Source of the DNA: Diphasiastrum complanatum
Taxonomy: Eukaryota; Streptophyta; Lycopodiopsida; Lycopodiales; Lycopodiaceae
Direction: 5' to 3'
Length of the DNA stretch: 64,000 bases
Assembly (NCBI GenBank): GCA_029204225.1
Contig: CM055098.1
Location: 1,549,106-1,613,105, forward strand
The position numbers were made by a program, and so were the translations under genes. Of the stretch, positions 8,779 through 21,586 are shown in pieces (within the stretch, counting starts at the first letter, position 1; each line of letters starts with the position of its first letter). The notes under the pieces were generated by a model that ran no database searches, was not told where the DNA came from, and worked only from the letters and a program-made list of their open reading frames with translations.

Positions 8779-11738
8779 TACACAATAGTGGGGAAGACAG
8801 GTGTCATAGCTGAGCGTTAGTTGTTATTTATGTCCAAAAGAAAGTATACTACTTAACAACATAAATAGCATTTTTAATCATAGTCCGGTCTTCCCAAACG
8901 AAAAGAATGTTTTTTAGCAATAGGCCAAGCCCTGACAATACCGTATCAGGACAAGTGCCATGCTGATCAATTTTAGGACATTGGCCATATCAGTTCGTTT
9001 TGTTTTATGCATAAGTATGAATAGTTTTCACCGTATACCTTGTTTATCGCTAAAAGATATGGTGTGGACACGTGTACATGTGTTAGAACAAATTCATGCT
9101 ATGATAACCCTGGTGACTCTAATTTCAAAAAACAAGTCACGTACTAGTGTCCATACTCCTGAGCCATGCTTTCCAATCGTATCTCACCATGCTTGATATG
9201 ATAACTAAATGGGTATTAATTTGTAAAAGCCATGATTGAATAGTGTAGTTTTGAATAAACTTGTGTTTATCAACACTCCGTATTCCACCGGTGGTATTTA
9301 TTAAATTGTTTTGGATAGGTTACATATTATCGGTGAGGTTTTCATGGTTTTTACAAGGTATCAGTGCAGATCCATGCCATTCTAAACGTTTTGTCGTTTA
9401 TCTTACGCAAATCCATGTTGTCTAAGATAATTTAAAAAAAACCTTGCTACAAGACGGCAAAAGTGTCAACTTAACAGAGTTGTTAAGCTGTTTACGAGTT
9501 GGTAGAATCTAAATAGGTAAAAAGAGACGTATTTAAGAATTTAGAGTCACTACTAGCCAAAGAGAATTGAATATATCTGTATAAAAACACATTCCCTTTG
9601 AGCGTAAGCGGCTTATGCAGAGTCTGAATTTTGTTGCAAGAATTCATACCTGGATGATCGCATATGTGTTTTCTTGTGAGGATGTCATGTTATTCCTTCG
9701 AGTGCTCTTGTCTTCTTTAGAATCAAATCATTCATACCATTATTGTCAAATAAGGTAAAAAGCAGAACTCAGCATATCAAAGAAAGCCTTTCATTAATCG
9801 CTTATATCAATTGGGAGCGAGTGGTTTTATGTATATACCTGTGTAGACGCTTATAGAATTATGGTTCGAAACCGAACCAAACCGAGAAAGACTGTTGTAG
9901 TAATAATCGATGCTACACGAAGCGCATGTTACTTCCTTTAGTGATTGAATACTAGTATTCTCTTTCAAGTGGAAACCAGTAGATAGTATGCTAGCAGCTT
10001 GACTAAAGCATGATGGGTAACGAATAACGCCAAAGCAGCAAGCATCTGAGCTGTAAATCTTGTATGCTAAAATGCAAGCAGAGTTGGTTCTTGTAAATAA
10101 CCTTTCAAAAACAGAATAAGACCGAAGAGACATTCTATCTCTTGTCGGATACTAGTGCTTAATGTGTGTTATGTTATCACAAGAACATCCTTCATAAACA
10201 CATGCAATAATTGTAGAACAAAAGAGTGCTTCATCGCTGGTATTCTACATCATAAACATACTTCTATAACTACACAAACGCTATGATGCATGGCCATCCT
10301 TGGCATGCAGTGATCATGATGAAGCGTTAGTCCAACATCGTGATAAATTCTACAGTTTTTAGGACAATAATGATTGTACTTTACAATCATAGAGAGTTAT
10401 TGGTTGCTTAATCAATGGATCTATCAAGTTCTACACATTAGATCTTGATCTAGATTCACTACACTTGGATTTAAACAAGAGCAATGGATCAGCACATCAT
10501 AAATCAGTGAGAGCGGCCTCACACATGTGGAGTATTGTCCACAGTACAGCCTGCACCTGAAACAACAAGTACATTAATCCTAGATAGCAATCATTCATAG
10601 AAATCACAAGACAAATGACTAGAAACCTCACAAAAGTGTAGAATGCAAAAGTCTCATCAATATTCTTAGCAAAATGATGATCCTTTTATGGATCAGGTAC
10701 ATCCACAAGTCTGGTACAGTCCAGCAGGTCTTCACACGTGTGAAGAGTTCCACATCACTCAGATCTATCCATCTGATCCATCCTTGATCCTTATCAAAAG
10801 CTGACCTTCTAGAATATGGCTAAAATCCAAAAACCTAGTCTCCTAGAATATAGGAATATTCCCTACAAAATAGGATCTAAGGAAAATGGTCAACTCTTAT
10901 CTTCTAGTACTCTATACACACGTGTGAACATCCACTTGCCATGTGGGAGCATTTACTCATGCACATGCAAGGAAAAGCTAATTTCTAGGTGACTAGTCAA
11001 CTTGAATAAAAACTAGTCATATCATGTTCACACTAACTAGATTGATACAAAATCAATTTAGATATATACAAGTATGAAAAGTACATCCTTTCACACGTGG
11101 GAACATGCTCCACATGTGTAAAATCAGATCATCAACATTATTCTAATGTTTGATCAATATTTACAATAACCAATGTCAAGTGAGAAGTGATAATTTTCAA
11201 CACATCGCTGGACAACGGACTACTTTTATCAACTTTATCAATCAACAGTTATGATAGATCCATCGTCGGACAGCGGATCAAAATACATCAAATATTCACT
11301 ATTTACCTGAGCCTATTCCATCACTGGGGAAGTGCCACAGATATGGAAAGTGGGCAATCGCTTGGTCCATCGTTGTGGACAGCGGATAAACCAACACGCA
11401 TAAACCTTCAAAGGGAATGCAAGCTTTCTTATCATAGAGATATGAATGGATCAAGGAGAAAAGAGTTAAACCACATACCCTATATCATAAACGAATAAAC
11501 CAAAGCTTCGGCGTGCTCTCTGCTATGAGCATATCTCCAAACCGTATAGTAGAAAAGCTATAGTCGAAAACAGGTGATATATAGCAGTTTGTGAGGAACC
11601 ATCGTGGAAGAGCCCGACTAACCAAAATGGTGGAAAACTTTTTTTTTGAATAAAGCCACACAGGGTTGGGTTTGAAAAAAGGCTTAGGACCTCCAGATAA
11701 GTAATTTTTTTTGTGATTTAAAATAAAGAAGAGTCCAT
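8779..11738 (-). mobile_element. Copy D: non-coding member of the (CT)n-flanked RT element family
   Basis: In the sense (minus) direction it starts just after the (CT)n tract at 11739-12030 with ATGGACTCTTCTTTATTTTAA and matches the 5' leader of copy B (11738-11202 against 21433-20857). It then matches the leader/ORF1 junction of B (10185-10334 against about 20690-20850). The ORF1-RT block is missing. The rest (8779-9450) matches the 3' region of copies C, F, G and H. Its 3' end stops early, at CTTCCCCACTATTGTGTA, and passes straight into (CT)9. An 861-bp foreign insertion sits at 10341-11201. No convincing open frame remains, so I infer a deletion derivative mobilised in trans. Confidence 0.7.
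10341..11201. mobile_element. Insertion of about 861 bp inside copy D
   Basis: Comparison with copy B shows extra DNA here, flanked by ACATCG at 10335-10340 and 11202-11207, a likely 6-bp target duplication. It starts TGATAAATTC and ends AATTTTCAAC. It carries four copies of a CACACGTGTGAA/TTCCACA motif (about 10519, 10734, 10917, 11092), also seen in other promoter-like repeats of this window. It may be a solo LTR, but the class is unresolved. Confidence 0.5.
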
Positions 11739-12030
11739 GAGAGAGAGAGAGAGAGAGAGAGAGAGAGAGAGAGAGAGAGAGAGAGAGAGAGAGAGAGAGA
11801 GAGAGAGAGAGAGAGAGAGAGAGAGAGAGAGAGAGAGAGAGAGAGAGAGAGAGAGAGAGAGAGAGAGAGAGAGAGAGAGAGAGAGAGAGAGAGAGAGAGA
11901 GAGAGAAGGAGAGAGAGAGAGAGAGAGAGAGAGAGAGAGAGAGAGAGAGAGAGAGAGAGAGAGAGAGAGAGAGAGAGAGAGAGAGAGAGAGAGAGAGAGA
12001 GAGAGAGAGAGAGAGAGAGAGAGAGAGAGA
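11739..12030. repeat. (GA)n microsatellite, 292 bp
   Basis: Almost perfect GA repeats with one interruption near 11907. The tract lies between the 3' end of copy A and the 5' end of copy D, so both element boundaries coincide with tract edges. Confidence 0.97.
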
Positions 12031-12138
12031 TTTACAAGACACCACTTAGTTCCTGTTGACAAAGCAAGATTGAAGTTCTTTAAAGCCTTTATTCATAATC
12101 CAACAAGGTAAAGTACAGCTGAAAAGTAAAATATAGTA

Positions 12139-20695: not shown

Positions 20696-21433
20696 TCGTC
20701 ATAAATACATGCAATGATTGTAGAACAAAAGAGTGCTTCATCACTAGTATTCTACATCATAAACATACTTCTGTAACTACACAAACGGTGTGACACATGG
20801 CCATTGTTGGCATGCGGTGATCATTATCAGTTTAAGTGTGTGGAGAGAAGCGTTAGTCCATCGCTGGTCTACTTTTATCAATTTAATCAATCATCAGTTA
20901 TGATAGATCCATCGTTGACAGTGGATCAAAATACATCAAATACTCACCATTTACTTGAGCCTATTCCATCGCATCGCTGGACAGCGGAGTAATCCATTGT
21001 AAAAAGTGCCACAGATATGGAAAGTGATCAATCGTTGGTCCATCGCTGGTGGACAGCAGATCAACCAACACACATAAACCTTCAAAGGGAATGCAAGCTT
21101 TCTTATCGTAGAGATATGAATGCATCAAGGAGAAGAGAGTTAAACCACATACTGTATATCATAAACGAATGAAAAAAAGCTTGATAGGGTGCGCTCTCTA
21201 CTATGGGCATATCTCCAAACCGTATAGTAGAAAAGCTTTAGTCGAAAATAGGTGACATACAGCAGTTCATGAGGAAGCTTTGTGGAAGAGCCCTTCTAAC
21301 CAAAATGACGGGAAACCATTTTTTGAATAAAGCCACATAGGGTTGGGTTTGAAAAAAGACTTAGGACATCCAGATAAGTAATTTTTTTTGTGATTTGACC
21401 AGGGGACGTACTTTAAAATAAAGAAGAGTCCAT

Positions 21434-21586
21434 GAGAGAGAGAGAGAGAGAGAGAGAGAGAGAGAGAGAGAGAGAGAGAGAGAGAGAGAGAGAGAGAGAG
21501 AGAGAGAGAGAGAGAGAGAGAGAGAGAGAGAGAGAGAGAGAGAGAGAGAGAGAGAGAGAGAGAGAGAGAGAGAGAGAGAGAGAGAG
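21434..21586. repeat. (GA)n microsatellite, 153 bp, 5' side of copy B
   Basis: A perfect GA tract ends exactly where copy B begins. Confidence 0.96.

Follow-up and report, generated by a model that had tools for sequence, protein, structure and literature searches.

A putative Penelope-like retroelement family bordered by CT microsatellites in the lycophyte Diphasiastrum complanatum

Introduction

Multiple copies of a reverse transcriptase (RT) element in the lycophyte Diphasiastrum complanatum border on CT microsatellites, which raises the question whether these microsatellites are the place where the element inserts or a part of the element itself. The stretch that raises it, hereafter the window, comprises 64,000 nucleotides of contig CM055098.1 (G000:C7:1549106-1613105). 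Four copies whose sense strand is the minus strand are arranged here in the sense order (CT), B, (CT), C, (CT)5, A, (CT), D, (CT), and the starts ATGGACTCTTC (copies B and D) and ATGGATGCTCC (copy C) stand immediately 3′ of CT. An original prediction, made from the sequence alone, had described (CT)n tracts around B, C/A and D and on both sides of a further copy, F, and all of these tracts are confirmed (Table 1). We give slightly better than even credence to the proposal that the element inserts into CT tracts, with the (CU)n end of its RNA pairing with GA primer ends, and builds chains in this way; CT targeting as such is likely, not proven. A Penelope-like family without a recognised endonuclease at interstitial CT microsatellites would suggest that telomerase-type RTs are able to prime at an abundant simple repeat, and docking at CT would offer an explanation for the CT-rich microsatellite content and for the head-to-tail chains.

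CT Tracts Ahead of the Element Start

The exact 21-nt start ATGGATGCTCCTTTGTTCAGT occurs 152 times in the genome, and CTCTCTCTCTC stands immediately ahead of it in 129 of these occurrences, with reversed-pattern controls giving 0 in both cases. Twenty regions were read (L numbers denote fetched regions of the same genome); they hold 21 of the 22 starts listed first, one start that had been seen earlier being omitted. CT is present upstream of the start in all 20 regions: in 15 without a gap, in two with (CA)n between and in two with AT between, and in the remaining one a duplicated 78-bp start is found, of which the outer start adjoins CT (L127, C2:47562250-47562348, with two starts 78 bp apart and the initial 78 nt of the element present twice). 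Another 13 independent starts, namely those of B, C, D, L068, L056, L069, L073, L074, L075, L078, L107, L109 and L111, all have CT as well. Regions without a start are excluded from the start counts (13/19 in one set and 5/8 in another), and L069 was settled by a search for the exact start. In L114, L122 and L074, a compound (CT)n(CA)n tract immediately precedes ATGG; L114 and L074, whose leaders can be aligned, are not nearest relatives on the leader tree.

Anatomy of the Element

The element is a multicopy retroelement with a unit consisting of a 5′ P module of ~2.5 kb, a CT joint, an R module with an N-terminal open reading frame (N-ORF) and the RT, a shortened P module (P′), and a terminus of TTGTAA(CT)n. 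This anatomy was demonstrated at one genomic locus (L068) and in the window. A genome-wide search with the tail gave 2085 first-look candidates, and only the best 40 were scored. Of these, 39 lie outside the window and had their 3′ junctions read; together with A, C, F, G, H and the second tail of L068, this gave 45 classified tails. In 21 of these 45, TTGTAA and the beginning of the RT module are separated by just 7-13 nt of CT. Copies C and A, which had been regarded as separate head-to-tail copies, have only 10 nt of CT between them, and because this short joint recurs in 21 of the 45 tails, they are now read as a single element. A short CT run (7-13 nt) belongs to the element, clearly so at its 3′ terminus and also at its internal joint.

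At L068, a P tail is followed by (CT)6, R, a P′ that is interrupted by a long terminal repeat (LTR) element (copia-like by eye), TTGTAA, 97 bp of CT and then ATGGATGC, which is the start of the next P module. Since the next P-R joint comes further on in the genome (C23:38859238; L055), the units are arranged head to tail. Joints of tail, CT and start have been seen in L056, in L068 and in the window. A second type of succession, leading from a B-type 3′ end through CT to a P start, is present in 7 of the 20 regions (L116, L118, L123, L125, L126, L129 and L133); in L129, the inverted repeat of the B-type end reads GGGCAGTTAGCT...AGCTAACTGCCC.

A first exon of 39 nt, MAASQEATSTTIQ, is predicted in the P module. 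Among 12 sequences compared, five retain the ATG, the frame and CAG|GT, while a GT is present at this position in 11. Copy D, although diverged, retains the exon length, the peptide pattern and the GT. TT(T/C)AG stands ahead of ACTATTATTTG in 12 of 19 R copies and is a candidate acceptor, the true one being uncertain. If the exon prediction is right, the intron would span the CT joint between P and R.

Copy C also has four hairpins with GCGA (GNRA) tetraloops of the TCCAGCGATGGA type within 450 nt (minus strand, 16406, 16547, 16615 and 16854), and similar motifs are seen by eye elsewhere in the leaders. This set is possibly a protein-binding RNA array. An Rfam scan of window positions 8400-21700 (E up to 5) gave no hammerhead ribozyme.

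Class of the Reverse Transcriptase

The original prediction had pointed to animal non-LTR retrotransposons, a group that includes the long interspersed nuclear elements (LINEs), as elements known to target microsatellites. Pfam searches at E up to 1 yielded no match for the ORFs of A and B, and neither a GIY-YIG nor an APE or RLE endonuclease was found among them; NCBIfam and PDB sequence searches with the same ORFs, a protein search with a fragment of B and a viral contig search gave nothing useful. The RT read-through of L068 has 83 relatives at 33-46% identity, one of which is from the moss Ceratodon purpureus (P0068). The next match is P0084 (E 1.5e-13, 28% identity over 86%), a protein with an N-terminal GIY-YIG domain (E 1.8e-5, above the Pfam cut-off) followed by an RT, and by eye the similarity reaches upstream of the RT core. 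The RT motifs have also been recognised by eye.

For the model of family member P0002 (pLDDT 83.7), the 15 best PDB matches in a fold search are all telomerases (E 1.4e-8 to 1.4e-4), with viral polymerases from rank 16 on. Normalised by query length, however, the telomerases reach only low TM-scores (0.31-0.40), which is a point against this reading. No homologues of the N-ORF were detected, and its model (pLDDT 35) is useless. Based on the RT relatives, which include the GIY-YIG-bearing P0084, and on the telomerase folds, we place the element among the Penelope-like elements (PLEs) in the broad sense, with a TERT-related RT. A LINE identity of copies A-D is rejected, as these have no Pfam match and RT relatives that are Penelope-like.

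CT Tracts at the 3′ Ends

When the internal joints are set aside, 24 true 3′ ends are left, of which 14 adjoin CT runs of 20 bp or more. CT/GA tracts of this length number 16 in the 200 kb on the flanks of the window and occupy about 0.6-0.7% of that sequence; against this background, CT is very strongly over-represented at the ends of the element. No further match to ten tail and start queries was obtained in these 200 kb. Within 264 kb including the window, tracts of at least 20 bp number 31 for CT/GA, 14 for AT and two for AC/GT, and a CT 28-mer has 1,632,216 forward and 1,616,921 reverse matches genome-wide. The genome-wide search for tails and starts with CT flanks that had been suggested for this locus came out in favour of the association, with strict adjacency at the starts counted above and long CT at more than half of the true 3′ ends.

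Not all 3′ junctions in the window are equally strong. Copies G and H had been described as running into CT at their 3′ ends; CT is present at both, but it measures just 12 and 8 bp and is followed by unrelated sequence, which makes them weak cases. B has a distinct 3′ end, and D is cut short: its position 8786 corresponds to 15083 in C, where the shared tail runs on to 14888, so that D lacks ~195 nt. The tail of C at A is an internal joint and not a terminus.

The length of CT at the 3′ end differs greatly from copy to copy, and two probable haplotigs have 44 and 22 bp of CT at the same joint. Both observations are in line with a later expansion, in which the element inserted with its short terminal CT and the tract then grew. 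Such growth could not yield CT upstream of a 5′ start where the upstream flank is non-element DNA, and we regard it as a very improbable account of the tracts.

Target or Own Sequence

The DNA beyond the 5′ CT is informative in this respect. It matches no piece of the element in any of the eight copies tested. Among the 20 regions, a B-type end lies upstream of the start in seven, ten have DNA that is unrelated by eye, and in three nothing beyond CT is visible. A CT that is merely the unit of a longer tandem repeat is rejected, as the DNA outside CT differs between copies; the original prediction had named this as an outcome that would speak against it.

The same regions bear on template jumping, in which the RT reaches the 5′ end of its RNA and switches to the 3′ (CU)n of another element RNA, so that a chain is formed in one event. 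This would account for CT being found at full-length starts only and for the element ends upstream. It is difficult to reconcile with the eight tested copies and with the regions in which the DNA upstream is unrelated or shows nothing beyond CT, a B-type end being present in only seven of 20, and we consider it unlikely. The seven successions of B-type end, CT and start mean either that copies have landed repeatedly in CT that terminates another element, or that tandem transcripts were copied.

On a tree of the 20 leaders, copies of the (CA)n type, the AT type and the B-end type are each scattered, with no grouping by flank. This suggests, from few informative copies, that the type of 5′ flank was gained at insertion and not inherited.

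In the mechanism that we favour, the element RNA would end in a short (CU)n stretch, which would base-pair with GA-strand DNA at a CT microsatellite. Reverse transcription would then be primed by a 3′ end that a nick or a break provides there, and the completed copy would be joined to the CT remaining on the other side. New copies would land in CT tracts in the same orientation, including the tracts that end older copies, and head-to-tail chains would be the result.

Multiple observations weigh against this mechanism. At the 3′ side, unrelated DNA begins after only 7-12 bp of CT in 9 of the 24 true ends, and CT is missing altogether from one. At the 5′ side, 1.1 kb was read in 18 regions upstream of copies with a true 3′ end; eight show a boundary (seven loci, one of them present twice), seven continue as element and three are unclear (L089, L099 and L105). 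All seven loci, which are apparently 5′-truncated, are without a CT run of at least 10 bp in the upstream part read, while five of them carry long CT at the 3′ end. Copies G and H are, like these loci, without upstream CT, in G at what appears to be its 5′ end. The difference between full-length starts and truncated loci in upstream CT is significant (31 vs 7; Fisher p 8e-8), also when G, H and F are added to the truncated set as 1/10 (p 3e-8). No empty site was seen, and in the few copies for which both flanks were read, no target-site duplication outside CT was found by eye. Neither Pfam with the A and B ORFs nor the homologue search with the N-ORF revealed an endonuclease that could make the break. 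Several nodes of the leader tree are weak and four of the 20 leaders (L120, L122, L124 and L132) align at ~60-68%, so that the flank argument rests on few copies (two (CA)n and two AT usable). In addition, the totals contain probable duplicates or haplotigs (L080/L083, L035/L043, L037/L062, L060/L061, L123/L126 and L130/L131), and because several loci are near-duplicates, the independent counts are smaller. Under insertion into CT, 5′-truncated copies should have CT upstream as well, and all seven loci depart from this expectation, unless nested insertions or deletions account for them; because of these truncated copies without upstream CT, the element is said to work like a microsatellite-targeted retroelement and not to be one.

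The truncated loci would fit a CT that is intrinsic on both sides: the RNA would begin and end in CT, full-length copies would carry CT at both ends irrespective of where they insert, and truncated copies would retain only the 3′ CT. All full-length starts read have CT, against none of the seven truncated loci, and the short CT that is part of the 3′ end and of the internal joint fits this explanation as well. However, the (CA)n-type and AT-type flanks form no lineages, albeit in few copies, and repeated joining to B-type ends (7/20) would be unexpected under random insertion, unless tandem transcripts were copied. Nested insertions of the kind seen in L068 and G may also distort the truncated set, and these or later deletions could lie behind the truncated boundaries. 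An intrinsic origin of CT on both sides is possible, although we doubt it. The claim that CT is the target and not part of the element is supported in part, by the starts, the long 3′ tracts and the seemingly acquired flanks (few informative copies), but it has to be given up for the 7-13 nt of CT that are intrinsic.

A Second Retroelement with CT Ends

An APE-type LINE with CT ends was found outside the window in the same genome. One copy in L028 has weak matches to RVT_1 (E 1e-5) and to Exo_endo_phos (E 0.0015), neither of which reaches its Pfam cut-off. This LINE begins with ATGG after CT and ends with AATAAA...CT, and its copies are arranged head to tail, as in the Penelope-like element; its protein differs. 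Twelve LINE tails were obtained with five query tails from CT-adjacent copies, matches being taken regardless of CT, and eight have CT and four do not. The LINE start junctions are biased because they were found from CT tracts.

The LINE could supply cutting or reverse transcription in trans, with the CT end as a shared recognition tail. The APE-like and RT domains of the L028 copy, CT at 8 of the 12 tails, the CT-ATGG starts and the Penelope-like element being without a recognised endonuclease all agree with such help. On the other hand, the element has its own RT, four LINE tails are without CT, and by eye the tails have only AATAAA and CT in common, which makes a supply in trans quite improbable. 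It is also conceivable, although rather doubtful, that two unrelated RTs, one Penelope-like and one of an APE-type LINE, converged on (CT)n, which would be their landing pad and their 3′ tail and might also act as a promoter, and that they jointly spread CT tracts through the genome. If so, transcription would start at the A after the pyrimidine tract and the CT end of one copy would drive the next copy. CT tracts of at least 28 bp amount to at least 6.5 Mb of the genome if the CT 28-mer matches were counted overlapping, as their listing suggests.

Relation to Known Elements

Naiad and Chlamys are names for PLEs with an N-terminal GIY-YIG, Coprina is, beside Athena, another endonuclease-deficient telomeric PLE, and Kibi and Waldo are microsatellite-specific non-LTR elements. 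The element described here resembles the GIY-YIG-bearing PLEs in the homology of its RT to P0084 and differs from them in its CT borders and in that no GIY-YIG or Rfam hammerhead was found within the scopes searched. A pseudo-LTR and tandem organisation of PLEs are described in PMC11167929, and the pseudo-LTR-like P module and the tandem or partial-tandem copies are a likeness to this. In Pen2a_Av, according to PMC3846280, 12 amino acids are encoded in the pseudo-LTR; here, the first 13 codons are predicted to lie inside the P module.

Endonuclease-deficient PLEs (Athena) are located at telomeres and tied to simple repeats, as stated in PMC3846280 and PMC12477314. With these, the element shares an RT without a recognised endonuclease and the association with a simple repeat, but the repeat here is an interstitial CT dinucleotide and not a telomere repeat. 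Microsatellite-specific non-LTR elements include Togen in (TG)n of fish and some HERO families (PMC4640811); they also insert in a defined microsatellite, in contrast to the Penelope-like RT here, however, they are non-LTR elements.

Plant transposable elements surrounded by microsatellites as "landing pads" are mentioned in PMC12477314, where the statement concerns the surroundings, whereas a fixed junction between start and tract is found here. No description of a Penelope-like family at CT microsatellites was found in the literature searched, a weak negative, as the main paper on PLEs of the green lineage was not covered. The earlier remark that no plant family with such behaviour had been described can be kept to this extent, while the idea of landing pads, at least, is already in print.

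Other Features of the Window

The coordinates of the copies, of their borders and of the remaining features are given in Table 1.

Table 1. Features of the window and copies of the APE-type LINE found outside it.
Feature	Position	Strand	Remarks
(CT)n tract, 5′ border of copy B	21434..21586	-	DNA upstream of tract not element-like
Copy B	17403..21433	-	starts ATGGACTCTTC; leader, N-ORF, RT region, inverted-repeat 3′ end
Copy B N-ORF	19829-20698	-	
Copy B RT region	within 17500-19423	-	frames broken
Copy B 3′ end	17403-17481	-	imperfect inverted repeat, terminus GGTGGGTT then (CT)n
(CT)16, B end to C start	17371..17402	-	
Copy C, P module (pseudo-LTR-like)	14888..17370	-	starts ATGGATGCTCC, tail terminus TTGTAA
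Copy C leader	~16633-17370	-	
Copy C common part	14888-16632	-	
Predicted first exon, copy C	15951..15989	-	39 nt, MAASQEATSTTIQ, then GT; prediction
Copy D counterpart of predicted exon	9650-9688		equal length, similar peptide
Internal (CT)5 joint, P to R module	14878..14887	-	10 nt
Copy A, R module	12031..14877	-	
Copy A N-ORF	13866-14711	-	
Copy A RT	12142-13359	-	lost after motif A
Copy A shared tail	12031-12184	-	154 nt
(CT)n tract, A tail to D start	11739..12030	-	
Copy D	8779..11738	-	start ATGGACTCTTC, B-type leader, extra segment, P common part
(CT)9 at D 3′ side	8761..8778	-	within CT-rich region
Copy F, diverged P-type	39860..40754	+	5′ end full-length or truncated
(CT) tracts flanking copy F	39773-39859 and 40755-40827		
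Copy G, interrupted	57183..59359	+	
(CT)6 at 3′ end of copy G	59360-59371		12 bp, then unrelated sequence
Copy H, old fragment	55852..56142	-	8 bp CT after 3′ end, then unrelated sequence
LTR element	44246-50135		minus-strand ORFs 44834-46558, 46559-48166, 48167-48754
Open frame	34024-37818	-	1264 codons
Degenerate 30-bp repeat array	36790-37469		in the open frame
Telomere-like AACCCT repeats	22938-23042		interstitial
APE-type LINE, outside window	L028:2748-6993		
More LINE copies, outside window	L028:2111-2724; L022 around 843-2498		

For the long open frame on the minus strand, with its repeat array, a Pfam search at E up to 1 gave no match. The LTR element in the window is copia-like by eye and has ends without a CT tract, and a short stretch of interstitial repeats resembling telomere repeats is also present.

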